Shown here: positions 6,341 through 26,013 of the stretch, piece after piece | How the letters are laid out: the number at the start of each line of letters is the position of its first letter | Numbering within the stretch: position 1 is the stretch's first letter | IMG/VR virus record: IMGVR_UViG_3300027844_000448 | Span: 1 to 26,013 of that record | DNA length: 26,013 nucleotides | Strand: one strand, 5' to 3' | Source of the DNA: a virus | Position numbers and translations under genes: made by a program | Notes under the pieces: model-generated | Databases searched by the model: none | What the model was told of the DNA's origin: nothing | The model's input: the letters and a program-made list of their open reading frames with translations, nothing else

Positions 6341-6532
6341 ATGACAACAGTTAAAGAAGACGGCGGACGAACAAACATCTACGCCACTGAACCCACTATG
6401 GAGATTATGGAAGTGAACGAATTGCATTCAGAAAAAGCTGAACGCCTTAACGGACGCCTTGCAATGCTTGGTGTCATCGCTGCTCTAGGAGCCTATGCAG
6501 TAACAGGTCAACTTATCCCAGGTATTTATTAA
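6341..6532 (+). CDS. hli: high-light-inducible protein (single-helix CAB/ELIP family)
   Basis: 63 residues with the chlorophyll-binding helix motif: Glu34, Asn37, Gly38, Arg39, Ala41, Met42 in AERLNGRLAMLG, then one membrane segment to about residue 58. HLIPs sit in the thylakoid membrane, bind chlorophyll and carotenoid, and protect photosystem II assembly and repair under stress; phage copies support D1 turnover during infection. The gene starts directly after the scaffold stop and ends in a TAATG overlap with the next gene, so it is expressed with the structural operon rather than with psbA, which lies about 1 kb further on behind a hairpin and a tRNA. Confidence 0.95.
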   Translation: MTTVKEDGGRTNIYATEPTMEIMEVNELHSEKAERLNGRLAMLGVIAALGAYAVTGQLIPGIY

Positions 6533-6873
6533 TGAAAGCACTACTACTTATCCCTGCACTACTTCTCTCTGCTATGCCAGGACACACTAATAGTGTTGAT
6601 CCTTCTACTTCTGTAGAACGTGGTGCTCCTTACTCCATTCGTCAGTGTCCTGATACTGATGGATCCTTTGGTAAGTTTCTATGTTACAACCAACAAGTTG
6701 GACGAACTGTATCAGTACTAGGAGTACCTGTACTTCCTGTATATTTCGAGTCCACTAAGGTTCGTCAGGTGAACTGTAATGTTCGTCATCCTGGTGATAC
6801 TGTACGTGGCACGATGGCTACTACTTACTGTCCAGTATTGGGTAGTCTTCCTAAGGCATCTTTCTTGGAATGA
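6532..6873 (+). CDS. secreted four-cysteine protein, unknown function
   Basis: 113 residues. The N-terminus (MKALLLIPALLLSAMPGHTNS) reads as a Sec signal peptide with likely cleavage near residue 17-20. The mature part has four cysteines (RQCPD, FLCYN, VNCNV, TYCPV), enough for two disulfides, in a beta-looking domain; this suits an extracytoplasmic protein. I do not recognise a family. It is coupled on both sides (TAATG with hli, ATGA with the RlpA-like gene), so it may act in the periplasm with the RlpA-like protein. Alternatives: a superinfection-exclusion factor or envelope-modifying protein. Both are guesses from export and context. Confidence 0.75.
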   Translation: MKALLLIPALLLSAMPGHTNSVDPSTSVERGAPYSIRQCPDTDGSFGKFLCYNQQVGRTVSVLGVPVLPVYFESTKVRQVNCNVRHPGDTVRGTMATTYCPVLGSLPKASFLE

Positions 6874-7166
6874 TAGGTGTCGGAGCTACTCTTATGTTGC
6901 TCGCTAGCTATTATGGACCAGGATTACATGGGAACCTCACAGCTAGCGGCACACGATTTGACAGTAACGCAAGTACAGCTGCTCACAAATCACTTCCATT
7001 CGGCACAGAACTTCGCGTTTGTTATGTCGGTTGTGAAGTGGTGACTATCACTGACCGTGGGCCTTATGTTCATGGTCGTCACCTAGACCTCAGTGAAGGT
7101 ACAGCAAGACGTATTGGACTTATCCATTCTGGTATAGGTAATGTAAAGACTACTAGGTTAAACTAA
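6870..7166 (+). CDS. RlpA-like double-psi beta-barrel protein
   Basis: 98 residues, almost entirely one RlpA/DPBB domain: ASYYGPGLHGNLTASGTRFD, then STAAHKSLPFGTELRV, then ITDRGPYVHGRHLDLS, and a final GIGNVKTTRL strand. RlpA of Pseudomonas is a lytic transglycosylase that cuts septal peptidoglycan lacking stem peptides; its aspartate in the DRGP motif is Asp62 here. The glutamate normally following TASG is replaced by Thr28, which may abolish or change activity. Two cysteines (Cys51, Cys55) sit in the central loop. The N-terminus (MIGVGATLMLLA) is hydrophobic but short for a signal peptide. It lacks the SPOR domain of bacterial RlpA. Coupled by ATGA to the secreted protein gene. Role in wall remodelling or lysis is inference. 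Confidence 0.85.
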   Translation: MIGVGATLMLLASYYGPGLHGNLTASGTRFDSNASTAAHKSLPFGTELRVCYVGCEVVTITDRGPYVHGRHLDLSEGTARRIGLIHSGIGNVKTTRLN

Positions 7167-8586: not shown

Positions 8587-9039
8587 ATGACATCATCTAG
8601 GTACAGAAACATAGATGGTCTAGATGCTTACCGTACGGTCCCTCCCACCCAGGGACCCCGCGGCCTTGCTGGTCCCTCTGGACCTCAGGGACCTGAAGGT
8701 AAAACTGGACCGCAAGGATTACAAGGACCGATTGGTCCAAGAGGAGAACAAGGAGAACAAGGTGTCTCTGGAATCACAGGATCTACCGGTCCTGAAGGAC
8801 ATCCAGGAACCCCTGGAAGAGACGGTAGAGACGGAAGGAATGGAACACCCGGAACACCAGGAACACCCGGTCCTCTAGGACCACAGGGTGAACGTGGAGA
8901 ACAAGGTGAGAAAGGACTGACTGGTTCTCAAGGTATTCAAGGACCACAAGGTCCATTCAATCAAAGTATACATAGAACAATGAGTACTATTTTAGAACGT
9001 TTAGCAGTACTTGAAAAGAAAGTGGAGAACCGTCGATGA
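8587..9039 (+). CDS. collagen-like fibre protein
   Basis: 150 residues. Residues 23-124 are 34 uninterrupted Gly-X-Y triplets (for example GPRGLAGPSGPQGPEG), many with Pro at X and GER/GEQ/GEK charged triplets that stabilise bacterial-type collagen helices lacking hydroxyproline. A C-terminal heptad-like helix (STILERLAVLEKKVENRR) could nucleate a trimer. The predicted structure is a rod of roughly 30 nm (102 residues at about 0.29 nm each), suited to a virion fibre or fibre extension. It begins three bases after psbA and overlaps the next fibre gene by ATGA, so both are probably made together and may assemble together (inference). Confidence 0.88.
   Translation: MTSSRYRNIDGLDAYRTVPPTQGPRGLAGPSGPQGPEGKTGPQGLQGPIGPRGEQGEQGVSGITGSTGPEGHPGTPGRDGRDGRNGTPGTPGTPGPLGPQGERGEQGEKGLTGSQGIQGPQGPFNQSIHRTMSTILERLAVLEKKVENRR
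8653..8958 (+). repeat. collagen Gly-X-Y coding repeat (34 triplets)
   Basis: A 9-base periodic stretch (GGN at every third codon) encoding 34 Gly-X-Y triplets. Locally near-identical units occur, such as GGAACACCC/GGAACACCA around 8840-8875, so slippage or recombination could change rod length. Confidence 0.85.
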
Positions 9040-10871
9040 GTTTTAGATCTTACATTAAAGTTGGACGTTCTGTTCCAAATAACTCACGTTATGTCAGACA
9101 AGTTGATGCTGGTTCTGGTGACGGAGATGGCTCATCAGGTGGAGGAGGTTCTGATGGTCTTGATGGTCTTGATGGTAAGGACGGTGAAGGTGTACCTGTC
9201 GGTGGTGAAACCGGTCAGATCCTAGCCAAGATTGATGAGAATGATTTCAATACTGAATGGATTGATAACTCATCAGTGTCAATTCTTGAGGAGTCACGTC
9301 CAGGAAAGCATGAAGGCGAACAAATTTTCTATGAAGGTAACTTATATGTCTGGGTTAATTCGGAGTGGGAAGTAATTGGGCCCACAGATATTGATGGTTA
9401 TGCCACAGAACAATGGACAACAGAAGCTCTCGAAAGTTATCTAACCGTTGATGCTTTTGATAATGGCCAACAGATCCAGACTGATAGCATCAGTGATAAC
9501 AGTAAAGCAATTGAACAGAATGCTTTAAACATTGCTGAACTAGAAGTAACCAAAGGCTCAGTCGCAAGATACAAAGTAGTCGATACTGCATTAGGTGTTG
9601 CATCCCGACCAGGCGAACTCTATACAAACAATAGTGATGCCAGTCTTGTCACAACGGTGAGCTTTGCTGCTGTTGACAGCAGCAGCAATGCAACCAAGCC
9701 AATGAATGATGGCGACATCATTGAGTTTGACTTTGGCAATGGAGTTGTTAGGTATGTAACAGGAGGGTCAGACGCTAACGCTTTGCCCGTCACCTATACC
9801 GACGGTCAGCACACTTTCAGCATCAATGAGGAGATGGATGTCTACATCTACCCTCAGAATAAAGCAGGCGCTAGCAAGGACTATGTTGATGAACAAGACG
9901 ACTTAAAGTATGACAAGACAGGTGGATTCATTACTGGACCCATAAAAGTTCAAGTTGATTCTCCATCGTCTCAGACTTGTTATGCAATCTATGAACCAGA
10001 AGGCGTAAGAACCTATTACATCTGGAATCCCGGCGGGCGGGGCGAAAACATTAAGCACGTCTGCCTGGATGGTAGCGATTTTGAGATTACTACTACAGCC
10101 ACAGTTAGCGGATCTAAGAAGACAGTAAGTCCTGCTATCTTTGGCTATCAGAATATCACTCTTAGCGGCGGAACAATCAGGCCACAAAGCGCCTCAGCAG
10201 ATGTAACCGTCTCTCACAAGATAGACACTGCACATACTTTTGAAGGACGAGCAATATTCAAGCTCCCGTCTGCTGGAGACGGCTTCACTATTAGAGGTAA
10301 CGCCACCGATGAAGACAAACTTTTGTCGACTTACCACAACAACGGTGGCGCGACTAAAGATGCTATCAACTACGCCGGTAGAACTGACAGTGATTCCAAC
10401 ATCCAGAACAAAGCATCAGTACAGGACTTAATACAAGCAGCCGGTGTAGCCACACCCGTTGGCGCAATCATGATGTGGATGAACCCGACAGCCCCTACTG
10501 GGTGGTTCTTGATGACAGGAGTTTCTTTCAGCGTCAATACATATCCTCTGCTGCACGCTTACTTATCGAATACATACGGATATTCATCAGGCATACTCCC
10601 CAACTGGCGTAACTACTATCCAGTAGGAAGTGGTACAGATACCAGCACAGAAGATAGTAACTTGGGTAAGAATTACAACTATAAAACAGCCAGGCCCCAG
10701 AGCAAGTTTAAAACTGCCGTCAGCATCCCGAATGGCGATGCCAGAACATTCAATGGTGCTGGCAGTACCAACGCATATTCAGATGGACTCGCAATAGTAG
10801 ACATTACTGGTGGTGATTCTATTACCAGACCCAAGTCAATTGCAATCCATTTCATTATCAAACATGATTAA
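9036..10871 (+). CDS. accessory tail fibre with C-terminal phage collar domain
   Basis: 611 residues. Order: Gly/Ser-rich linker (about residues 28-42), a short collagen-like DGLDGLDGKDGEG (about 43-55), a small beta module (GGETGQILAKIDENDFNTEW), polar repeats, and a C-terminal collar/MTD-like domain from about residue 470 (VATPVGAIMMWMNPTAPTGWF ... HFIIKHD), typical of receptor-binding fibre tips and common in cyanomyovirus fibres. It lacks the T7 gp17 N-terminal anchor found at 24865, so it attaches differently, perhaps via the collagen-like protein encoded just upstream. From about base 9570 codon choice shifts (more AGC, GGC, GTG), suggesting the distal part was acquired. Substrate unknown; host surface binding is likely. 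Confidence 0.85.
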   Translation: MSFRSYIKVGRSVPNNSRYVRQVDAGSGDGDGSSGGGGSDGLDGLDGKDGEGVPVGGETGQILAKIDENDFNTEWIDNSSVSILEESRPGKHEGEQIFYEGNLYVWVNSEWEVIGPTDIDGYATEQWTTEALESYLTVDAFDNGQQIQTDSISDNSKAIEQNALNIAELEVTKGSVARYKVVDTALGVASRPGELYTNNSDASLVTTVSFAAVDSSSNATKPMNDGDIIEFDFGNGVVRYVTGGSDANALPVTYTDGQHTFSINEEMDVYIYPQNKAGASKDYVDEQDDLKYDKTGGFITGPIKVQVDSPSSQTCYAIYEPEGVRTYYIWNPGGRGENIKHVCLDGSDFEITTTATVSGSKKTVSPAIFGYQNITLSGGTIRPQSASADVTVSHKIDTAHTFEGRAIFKLPSAGDGFTIRGNATDEDKLLSTYHNNGGATKDAINYAGRTDSDSNIQNKASVQDLIQAAGVATPVGAIMMWMNPTAPTGWFLMTGVSFSVNTYPLLHAYLSNTYGYSSGILPNWRNYYPVGSGTDTSTEDSNLGKNYNYKTARPQSKFKTAVSIPNGDARTFNGAGSTNAYSDGLAIVDITGGDSITRPKSIAIHFIIKHD

Positions 10872-10889
10872 ACACTAACGAGAGAAACA

Positions 10890-11072
10890 ATGGCTTACGA
10901 AGGACTTACAGTTGAATATTATGTCGCCACAGCAGGCGATCCTTTCTTTATCCCTGGCAACGTACAGGCACCCACAAGCTCCCATGACAACCCTGATAAC
11001 GGTACTAAGGCAGAACGTATTGCCGGTTGTCAGAAGCTGTCTCCAGACGGTGTAGCAGTCGTGGCTACCTAA
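10890..11072 (+). CDS. 60-residue protein of unknown function
   Basis: Starts MAYEGLTVEYYVATAGDPFF at ATG 10890, preceded by a GAGAG stretch nine bases upstream, and ends in a TAATG overlap with the next gene at 11072. One cysteine, no signal peptide or membrane segment; the composition (Gly, Pro, Asp, Thr) suits a small beta-rich structural protein. It lies between the accessory fibre and a membrane protein. A fibre-associated or virion role is possible from position alone; I do not recognise the family. Confidence 0.65.
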   Translation: MAYEGLTVEYYVATAGDPFFIPGNVQAPTSSHDNPDNGTKAERIAGCQKLSPDGVAVVAT

Positions 11073-11251
11073 TGAAACAGGCAGCCTTCTATTTGGTTGC
11101 CGGAGTAATCTCCATTCAGTTATTAATGGTAGCTGGTGTGTTAACAGGATGCTTTATAACACAGAACAGTAAATGTAATGGGTCTAAAGCATCTGAATTA
11201 ATGACATACATAGTTGCTCAAAGCTTTGCTCTATACGCTTCCGAGAAATGA
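11072..11251 (+). CDS. small membrane protein, holin-like candidate or lipoprotein
   Basis: 59 residues from ATG 11072 (TAATG with the previous stop). Residues 4-28 are a single hydrophobic segment (FYLVAGVISIQLLMVAGVLTG) followed by a polar loop with a second Cys and a hydrophobic-tending tail (MTYIVAQSFALYASEK). LTGC at residues 24-27 fits a lipobox, so an alternative is a lipid-anchored envelope protein, as outer spanins are. It overlaps the C39-like protease gene by ATGA. A lysis pair (membrane protein plus wall enzyme) is a reasonable inference; no sequence feature proves holin function. Confidence 0.7.
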   Translation: MKQAAFYLVAGVISIQLLMVAGVLTGCFITQNSKCNGSKASELMTYIVAQSFALYASEK

Positions 11252-11913
11252 TTAAACTTACAGATGCAGCTCTTTACTATAAAGAAGAGAGCCAACAATT
11301 TGAAGCCTATCAATGGCTTGAATCTCAGGTGGATCCTTGTACCCTTGAGATCTTTGGACAAAAATACAGGGACAAACCAGAAAGCATTAATGAGAACCCA
11401 CTCCTTGTTGAGTGGCAAAGTCAGAATGATAATGCTTCTGGAACTGGTTATCGTGAATGCTTCTCATCATCCATGGCAATGATTGCTATGTATTACGATA
11501 AGGTAAAGAACGATGATGAATATAACTCTATCCGTTCTAAGTATGGAGACACAACAGATGCGTCAGCACAGCTTGCAGCTCTCCGTTCATTAGGACTTAA
11601 CCCATCCTTTGTAACTAATGCTTCTATTCAAACCCTCCAAAACGAGATTGATTCTGGCCGCCCTGTTGGGACTGGTTGGCTCCATCACGGGACATCCTCT
11701 GCTCCTAGCGGTGGCGGGCATTGGAGTGTGGTTATTGGCTATTATGAAGGTGGTGTGATTATGAACGACCCCAACGGTGAGGCTAATCTCGTCAATGGTG
11801 GTTACACAGCTAATCAGAATGGTGCCGGCCTCAAGTACTCCTACAAACATTGGGAACCACGATGGTCTCCAGGTGGGAAGAATGATGGTTGGTGCATGAT
11901 AGTTAAGCCGTAA
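11248..11913 (+). CDS. C39-like papain-fold cysteine protease, possible endolysin
   Basis: 221 residues. A 55-residue helical N-terminal region (YYKEESQQFEAYQWLESQV) precedes a Peptidase_C39_2-type domain. Catalytic residues can be placed: Cys71 (GYRECFSSSMAM), His158 (GGGHWSVVIGYY) and Asp174 (IMNDPNGE), with a Gln-Asn pair (SQNDN) before the Cys as oxyanion-hole candidate. Members cleave peptides or, in phages, peptidoglycan cross-bridges. The gene sits right after a small membrane protein, away from the fibre genes' own functions, and no other lysin is seen in the window, so a lysis role is plausible. Alternative: a processing protease for virion proteins. Its stop is embedded in a tRNA T-arm-like hairpin region. 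Confidence 0.82.
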   Translation: MIKLTDAALYYKEESQQFEAYQWLESQVDPCTLEIFGQKYRDKPESINENPLLVEWQSQNDNASGTGYRECFSSSMAMIAMYYDKVKNDDEYNSIRSKYGDTTDASAQLAALRSLGLNPSFVTNASIQTLQNEIDSGRPVGTGWLHHGTSSAPSGGGHWSVVIGYYEGGVIMNDPNGEANLVNGGYTANQNGAGLKYSYKHWEPRWSPGGKNDGWCMIVKP

Positions 11914-20600: not shown

Positions 20601-20710
20601 ACGGAGCAAGAAAGATTTCAACAGAACGAGTTCCAGGTAATGGATGGAGATCAACCTTCAAACTACCTGACGGACGTTATTTCGCAGCACTACATGGTAC
20701 AGGAGTATGA
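17657..20710 (+). CDS. internal virion protein (gp15 position) with transglycosylase-like and M23-like domains
   Basis: 1017 residues; T7 gp15 has 747. A long helical, Gln/Asn/Lys-rich body (residues 1-720) is followed by a lysozyme-like/lytic transglycosylase-type segment (about 734-860), with GWDPTDIAAIISFETGG giving Glu758 as the likely catalytic acid, and ATGRIGLIQAGPNERRQYGL. The end resembles a LytM/M23 peptidase: GHAGWDYG with His965 and Asp969 (HxxxD), GTKLYL and a final AALH (His1013); the usual HLHFE zinc-ligand motif is missing. In T7 the wall-cutting domain sits in gp16, so the domain has changed place. Role: ejected core protein opening the peptidoglycan for DNA entry. Coupled by ATGA to the next gene. 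Confidence 0.85.
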   Translation: MKQIQFRGANKNTSYSPVQIGQGEVGQMKSRDNQAISDLKEAQNQKNKQNSEQIQNLESNFQKEEGNRNELKNLEDKTFAVRQSAIQQNKQQSQRNAVVDEKNAAEGLKTWTALTDFSKTIGEELTKYQDAKNESDMEAAYAEALAEGLPPNQVIAHQAMENELRRSGLAEDAIADEMAKRGVSPNVVTKVRSGNKWRDYGRLKAYSEMAGDGYGPWLEDQLNKLGPEAASPANRAAAIQKLQQDYLKQNKLFGLSADFLGPMFSKMRTSSNGVIEAARKREVVNGSTELFEESRTTLYGQKSPEALMGLYNAKATGYGADGKTINGNSAGVDAVFKELESYNRYTDEEVKYLLSNTITDNGQSFAERYGGRTSDLLDQRRTSADSDRSLADREKAEAGKAKEGEVLDFFKSQPEGIDVKSLDEAINELKQEGISVTRLEALRYETNQQKDKRAITAELEEKWLGGTLTKADLDDVRIPNELRNQYADRVTKLDAARAGTGTSQETMKSTLESTLKGNLLGAGFQADAAADGTLDLAVSSALAEYNRKFKAYSELMSPDKAHERAWNQIYEEVLNPPKGSLYAPKEDGSAKTGKKNYFPAFRPKAQGAWMDQTTLRAAIKEDPKLFTKEEVISKATAAEGVQRFKLNAIPQIPAVLQNAAKTSEYTATELYEQQIELLTGQKVKFSPSAADTLSGQIDDPKLQEILNRPSPQNIRTSILSSGASNGFSSPQPRGQSIIAMASRNGWDPTDIAAIISFETGGTLDPGEPGRGAATGRIGLIQAGPNERRQYGLGSGDWDLEIKGIEKYLKDRGAKPGMSLEDLYATVNGGNPGAGYTPDGNGTVARSPETLARLLVHKEAGSNNLGITRSSYAPTRDPNNMSPTLQHFYTTGGETNGGWSEHTDFKQADNPNTVEDEWGQYWDPAELDNYIHFEDPDHGVITLSELRNRIPISGGNFGDARSYGGHAGWDYGTKSGTKLYLKNGARKISTERVPGNGWRSTFKLPDGRYFAALHGTGV

Positions 20711-24864: not shown

Positions 24865-26013
24865 ATGACAATATTAACAGAAAATCTAATTAATGGTAGT
24901 GGTTCCAATACTTATAATTTTACCTTTCCTGTCATTGGTGACGGTGATGTAAGGGTTCAATTAAGAGAGTTTGATCCCTCCAGACCACCTTCCAATCAAG
25001 TCGTATCTCAAGTAGATACCTCAGCATTCACTGAATTACGTGATCCTAATAGGGTTGTCTTCTCACCAATTCCAGAAGATACTATTTATCAACTAGCTAA
25101 TGGTGATGTACGGACTACATCAACTGGAGGTTACCAAGTTGTTATCCGTATCTATCGTGATACTGAGATCAATAGTTCTACTGCATTCTTCTATCCTGGT
25201 TCTGCAGTCAGAGCAGAGGATTTGAATGAGAACTTCAGACAACTACTATTTGCTGCTCAGGAAGACGCTACAGACATTGGACAGATTCAGGGTTCTGTGC
25301 TTCCTGATGACAGCATCACAACTAATAAGATCAGAGATGGTGCTATTACCACACCTAAACTAGCAGATGGTGCAGTAACCACTGAGAAGTTAGCTGATGG
25401 TGCAGTAACACCTGATAAATTAGATCGTGAGTATCTTACTGATGCACCAAGTAATGGTGTTCAGTACACACGACGTGATGCTAACTGGTCTGCTGTTGAA
25501 ACTGATTACACAGAGATTAGTCCTACACCACCTCCTAATGCTGTACCTGGTCAATCCTGGTATGACTCAAAGGATGGTCGTACTTATATCTATTATGAAG
25601 ATACTGATAGTTCCCAGTGGGTTGAGATGAACCCCAGTTGGAATGGTTCAGTTGCTGATAACTCTGTTACTACATCCAAGCTTGTAGATGGTTCTGTAAC
25701 CCCTGTGAAGCTTGATCGTACTTATGTAGAGCCTGGGGATAACGTCTCCACTCTGACTAATGACGCTGGTTACATTACTTCAGCTGCTGCTGATGTCTGG
25801 ACACGCGACGGCACAACGCTGAAGCCTGCTAATGATGGCGATTCGATTGAAGCGGGGGCGGCCAGCTTTGCGGGTAATATCACAGCTGGAGATTATCCTA
25901 ATCCTACAGCATATATTTCAGCTCAAAATTTATTAGCTAGCGTTAATCCAAAGGCTGCTACTACAAATTCTTGCGGTGTCGCTGTCTACACAGATGGTTC
26001 TAATAACGGGGCA
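24865..26013 (+). CDS. main tail fibre, T7 gp17-like N-terminal part (partial)
   Basis: 383 codons, open at the right edge; ATG 24865, nine bases after the previous stop. Residues 1-150 are the T7 gp17-type tail-anchoring domain ([19 protein letters not shown], then [20 protein letters not shown]). Next come [15 protein letters not shown]-type repeats (about residues 152-190 and again near 270-290), a beta module ([20 protein letters not shown]) and, from about residue 310, a [20 protein letters not shown] segment with a GC-rich codon pattern unlike the rest. The receptor-binding end lies outside the window. The gene anchors fibres to the gp11/gp12 tail. Confidence 0.9.
25336..25425 (+). repeat. 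three tandem 30-bp repeats in the tail fibre gene
   Basis: Units start at 25336, 25366 and 25396 with GATGGTGC and encode [20 protein letters not shown] and [10 protein letters not shown]. Related degenerate copies recur near 25655-25720. Such decapeptide repeats are common in cyanophage fibre shafts and allow length variation by recombination. Confidence 0.85.

Follow-up and report, generated by a model that had tools for sequence, protein, structure and literature searches.

Two adjoining genes in a fragment of a T7-like cyanopodovirus, the first for a collagen-like rod protein and the second for a collar-domain fibre protein, probably encode an accessory host-binding fibre of the virion that would be carried besides the gp17-type tail fibre, with the pair being one version of an exchangeable cassette. 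The fragment, hereafter called the window, is the whole stretch of 26,013 bases that we analysed (IMGVR_UViG_3300027844_000448). T7-like cyanophages are usually described with a single type of tail fibre.

Genes in the window are arranged in this order: ribonucleotide reductase, portal, scaffold, hli, an RlpA-like DPBB protein, psbA, the collagen and collar genes, two small ORFs of 60 and 59 aa, a C39-like peptidase, major capsid protein (MCP), tail tube, internal virion proteins and the gp17-type fibre (ORFs were called by custom scripts, and some of these names were given by gene order). The nearest named relatives of the MCP, at 76–79% identity, are those of S-CBP4, DSL-LC07, S-CBP3, S-SRP01, S-CBP1 and NATL1A-7. 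A preliminary description of this DNA had placed a main fibre, separate from the pair, at position 24865, and the gene there, truncated at the window end, is indeed of the gp17 type judging from matches to several tail-fibre PHROGs (best 1.5e-27), while its match to PF03906 (0.0072) stays under the Pfam cut-off. Lysis-type genes flank psbA and the fibre pair in the same interval, on one side (6532–7166) the RlpA-like DPBB protein and a 113-aa ORF whose start, by eye, resembles a signal peptide, and on the other (11248–11913) the C39-like peptidase, which matches a PHROG annotated as endolysin (1.4e-69).

The rod protein (150 aa; 8587..9039, plus strand) is composed of a 22-aa head, 34 uninterrupted Gly-X-Y triplets (residues 23–124, nt 8653–8958) and a predicted coiled coil (residues 128–146). 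Such a run of triplets has a chance of around 3e-22 by residue composition alone, and the match to Pfam Collagen (PF01391; 3.2e-18, 65.7 bits with a cut-off of 27.2) places the protein in this family. Near its C-terminus, the residues I/M/I/L/L/V at positions 128, 132, 135, 139, 142 and 146 follow a 4-3-4-3-4 heptad spacing, which fits a short coiled coil of the trimerising kind. The earlier assignment of a 34-triplet collagen-like protein with a trimerising helix is therefore well founded in triplet count, family match and hydrophobic spacing. Many phage proteins match the rod, chiefly via the repeats.

The second gene (9036..10871, plus strand) encodes the collar-domain fibre protein of 611 aa, and its start codon lies within the stop of the collagen gene, so that the ATGA coupling reported previously is seen at 9036. 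Close to its N-terminus, the protein has a collagen stub of its own (9138..9191, plus strand; residues 35–52, six triplets), followed by the linker motif GVPVGG...W (9189..9260, plus strand; residues 52–75, from motif scan and BLAST) and, much further on, a phage tail collar domain (10461..10616, plus strand; residues 476–527) that belongs to PF07484 (1.2e-10, 41.6 bits with a cut-off of 24). Tail-fibre PHROGs match as well (best 6.9e-10), and the T7 fibre N-terminal domain (PF03906) was found in neither the rod nor the collar protein at E values up to 0.1, which agrees with the description of this gene as one with a collagen-like stretch and a collar domain that lacks the gp17 anchor.

Searched against 50,697 phage records, the collar protein gave no full-length relative, and its partial matches (37 records, Microbacterium and Yersinia phages) cover only the region around the collar domain. 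Its middle part gave one chance-level match in the phage collection (E 0.7), and the one weak match in the PDB sequences was to the chain HbP1 (E 0.072) and spans only the linker motif; nothing on HbP1 was found in the literature. The AlphaFold2 model of the collar protein alone is unusable (mean pLDDT 31.2, with none of the 611 residues reaching 70). In IMG/VR, a single other contig encodes the protein, at 100% protein identity, and there too the collagen gene accompanies the collar gene; this co-occurrence is trivial because the contig and the window align over 12,022 bases with 99.75% identity. The segment 8587–11072 had been presented as one fibre module; its last part is a separate ORF of 60 aa (orf60; 10890..11072, plus strand) that need not belong to the fibre. 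This ORF is conserved in relatives behind psbA or an adhesin gene (in L091, L101, L106, L119, L130, L137, L164 and others) and marks the downstream edge of the site; it has no family in Pfam or PHROG and no match in the phage collection, and a role as a small structural protein is conceivable.

From the families of both proteins, we infer trimerisation, joint assembly and receptor binding. The rod would trimerise into a collagen triple helix that is closed by the coiled coil and, with a collagen rise of 0.286 nm per residue, would measure about 29 nm if fully extended. The collar protein, also as a trimer, would continue or cap this rod through its own collagen stub, and its tip would touch the cyanobacterial surface and thereby raise adsorption or widen receptor choice.

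The location of the pair between psbA and capsid genes had been regarded as unusual, but we find that it is ordinary for this group of cyanopodoviruses, in which the interval is a recurrent adhesin site. The psbA–MCP gap of S-CBP1, S-CBP3, S-CBP4, DSL-LC07 and P-SSP7 holds at most one small annotated ORF. In IMG/VR, we considered the best 80 of 540 candidate MCP loci, near-duplicates included (e.g., L098 and L100), of which 41 show both scaffold and MCP and 52 have psbA reaching near its end and were used for the gap count. Across these 52 loci among the best 80, the median gap is 597.5 bases, and nine of them have gaps above 2.1 kb (the window, about 3.5 kb) that are filled with ORFs of 254–638 aa. 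A placement unique to the window can thus be rejected, as other contigs have long ORFs or cassettes there.

The proteins encoded at this site show matches to Laminin-G-like (just under the cut-off), carbohydrate-binding and PKD domains as well as to tail-protein PHROGs. In our scan, 8 contigs have an adhesin at the site with a shared MTHEK or MSYFK N-terminus, and 3 more start with a related MTIDHRK, giving 11 contigs with a single adhesin and a related N-terminus. The N-terminus of the collar protein looks similar by eye, and against the N-terminal profile of these adhesins it scores a non-significant E = 2.4 among 4,369 ORFs, just below the true members and beside similarly scoring unrelated ORFs. 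When 32 proteins from the site and from cassette tips were scanned, 7 matched Collagen, a few matched beta-propeller or Ig-like models, and only one, the window's own, has a collar domain. Two of the 32 (alignment A7) match SMP-30/gluconolactonase and lactonase beta-propeller models, which is odd for a fibre tip. The adhesin of contig L137 (7890–9110) combines a PKD domain with repeated SGLTSFPxI-type units, presumably of the kind found in surface leucine-rich proteins.

Gene position alone says little about function, because non-structural genes (hli, psbA and lysis-like genes) are found in the interval as well. The psbA stop and the start of the collagen gene are 3 nt apart, and neighbours such as hli and psbA act in the host, as would be expected if the pair were a moron that is expressed together with psbA and acts in or on the host cell instead of forming part of the virion. 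We consider this very unlikely, given that the named families matched by both proteins are nearly all structural or fibre families and that in relatives the site carries adhesin-type domains of various kinds.

The accessory fibre that we favour finds its closest parallel in a cassette of three genes that recurs in relatives. L091, a close IMG/VR relative (MCP 95%), encodes three proteins upstream of psbA: orf76 (76 aa), a collagen-like protein of 186 aa and a collagen-containing fibre of 511 aa. Scans with the rod and with orf76 found both orf76 and the collagen-185 rod in 28 IMG/VR contigs and in the isolate S-SRP01. This count merges contigs by name, since several locus ids are one contig: L194–L197 are omitted as duplicates of L210–L213, L198 is the contig of L214, and L181 is added, while L202–L209, which matched the rod scan via repeats or a short motif, are excluded, as no orf76 turned up next to them. 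Of the 28 contigs, 10 carry the cassette downstream of psbA (9 of these with the MCP visible behind it) and 7 upstream; another 4 show no psbA between the neighbours (L215, L220, L229 and L232), and for the remaining 7 the contig ends early or too few neighbours are shown to tell the side.

Its rod varies little in length (178–187 aa), and the first following ORF of at least 100 aa spans 118–744 aa; such an ORF stands behind the rod in 27 of the 28 contigs, and the 28th (L201) ends there. In S-SRP01 too a gene follows the rod, encoding 291 aa. In L217 and L231, the frame after the rod looks broken. L230 has orf76 and tip-like genes with no collagen gene detected, and the same gene went undetected at seven further orf76 loci, namely L239, which ends at orf76, and L234–L238 and L240, which have none of the cyanopodovirus marker genes used. 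The combination of a constant rod and varying tips would fit an exchangeable adhesin.

Like this cassette, the window pair lies between scaffold and MCP and has its fibre gene right after that of the rod, and it shares the linker with some of the tips. This linker of the collar protein (GVPxGG...GQxLxK...W) is also found in the cassette tips of L091, L193, L217, L231 and L233 and in S-SRP02 p004, and the loci contain three further ORFs with it (L024, L035 and L044); by BLAST, identity is 62% with S-SRP02 p004 (29 aa) and 33% with the L091 tip (69 aa). Unlike in the cassette, where orf76 stands directly upstream, no frame of the window matches the orf76 profile at E values up to 1 (30,480 stop-to-stop frames of all loci plus the window). 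The rods differ as well: BLAST matches between them are confined to the collagen repeats, and, set against an alignment of five cassette rods, the window protein has one block of 34 triplets and lacks both the NPITG-type (P-I-T-G) N-terminus and the middle FYIDYxxWVIYGPKG insert of the cassette rods. On these comparisons, the window pair, which is otherwise known only from one near-identical contig, is best seen as a separate, parallel version of a recurrent, little-described adhesin site. The proposal of the preliminary description that the pair is a rod plus tip fibre accordingly gains from a collagen gene followed by a separate fibre or adhesin gene recurring in the scaffold–MCP interval, whereas the unusual location that came with it has to be dropped.

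Some features of the locus could also be explained by two separate structural proteins, of which the rod would decorate the capsid like gp12 of phage SPP1 and the collar protein would be an independent receptor-binding protein, with the gene overlap being just compact packing. SPP1 gp12 is described as a 64-aa protein with a collagen centre and possible helices at its ends that forms trimers on hexon centres and is non-essential, and its gene sits exactly between scaffold and MCP (gene order as given in the paper; PMC6316719, PMC6813328; review PMC7602432). The collagen gene of the window lies between the same two genes more loosely, at distances of 2.2 kb (scaffold) and 3.0 kb (MCP), and other genes intervene. 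Similar overlaps are found elsewhere in the window (6870–6873 and 20707–20710), and the collar gene has a GGAG sequence of its own 8 nt before the start. Nevertheless, we judge such independence of the two proteins unlikely: a fibre or adhesin gene follows the related rod in all 27 contigs that go on, and several cassette tips contain a collagen stretch themselves, pointing to a coaxial joint. Compared by gene place and architecture only, SPP1 gp12 and the window rod have in common the collagen centre, a predicted helical end and a gene between scaffold and MCP, but gp12 stands alone without a tip gene and directly between its neighbours, and no homology is claimed beyond the repeats.

For an accessory fibre made of both proteins, we regard capsid and tail as about equally probable attachment sites, each somewhat short of an even chance, and a place on neither of them as about half as probable. 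SPP1 gp12, as a collagen-like protein of the capsid whose gene lies between scaffold and MCP, suggests the capsid, and the related cassette adjoining tail fibre genes in S-SRP02 suggests the tail. In a narrower form of the favoured explanation, the pair would sit on the tail, where the rod would bind the adaptor or nozzle or else the gp17 fibre and thus create second or branched tail fibres. This is possible, at a little under even probability. The cultured phage S-SRP02 encodes an orf76 homologue (1.1e-26) and a linker-bearing collagen-containing fibre directly behind its gp17-type and collar-domain fibre genes, contig L234 has orf76 following tail-fibre genes, and the collar domain and most of the named PHROG matches of the pair are of the tail-fibre kind. 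Against a position on the tail speak the missing orf76 in the window, the lack of a gp17-type anchor on either protein and the fact that relatives keep the cassette in the scaffold–MCP interval. One of the S-SRP02 fibre genes resembles the collar domain by BLAST (31% over 67 aa, 3e-4). The orf76 family corresponds to phrog_26903, which has no known function (L091:4322–4552; S-SRP01, L085:7158–7373; S-SRP02, L170:1580–1822; also L234, L236 and L237); in phages of quite different kinds, it stands ahead of fibre genes that are collagen-like or start with NPFTG, and it is a candidate adaptor or chaperone for fibres.

Other known systems resemble the pair in part. The E. coli prophage proteins EPclA and EPclB share with it a collagen rod, a trimerising coiled coil and a likely role in host attachment, but each is one larger protein with PfN/PfC domains of its own, whereas rod and tip of the window are separate genes outside the tail cluster; such prophage collagen-like proteins are described as trimeric and likely side-tail proteins (PMC3368898). 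T7 gp17 is comparable as a receptor-binding fibre by its general role, though the window proteins do not have its N-terminal anchor. The horn of Syn5, which we take to be formed by gp53 and gp54, is alike in being an extra non-tail appendage of a cyanopodovirus, but these proteins are encoded at a different genome place and have no run of at least 8 Gly-X-Y triplets. Kinship with Syn5 gp53, gp54 or gp58 was rejected, as no sequence relation emerged (best BLASTP E 0.37 over 33 aa, for the collar protein). By eye, gp53 and gp54 (L088:25983–29204) have a similar L-(E/D)-R-x-Y-x-N-P segment at their C-termini that may be a shared docking tail. In the passages on the shell in the cryo-EM paper on P-SCSP1u, MCP is the only shell component, and the knob and horn of Syn5 are noted as an exception (PMC10575957).

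Searches of open-licence literature on cyanopodoviruses for collagen-like fibres or for fibre islands next to psbA gave no title or abstract that describes this cassette, and we met no proteomics of a phage with a pair of the window type. The word "collagen" is absent from the main text of the papers on S-SRP01 (PMC8557907) and S-SRP02, and the text of the latter does not mention mass spectrometry. For S-SRP01, the passages with "proteom" concern the proteomic tree, and those on electron microscopy describe an ordinary podovirus and leave an extra fibre unmentioned (PMC8557907).

We also consider, as a rather doubtful extension of the accessory fibre, that collagen whiskers mounted on the capsid might serve as a second receptor-binding apparatus. 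With a rod that is conserved or replaced and tips that are swapped, all beside psbA, such whiskers would make host recognition changeable without touching the gp17 fibre. The isolate S-SRP01 is a cultured carrier of the related cassette, which makes the question directly testable. If rod and tip are part of the virion, host binding in abundant aquatic viruses could partly be set by a second, easily exchanged adhesin.
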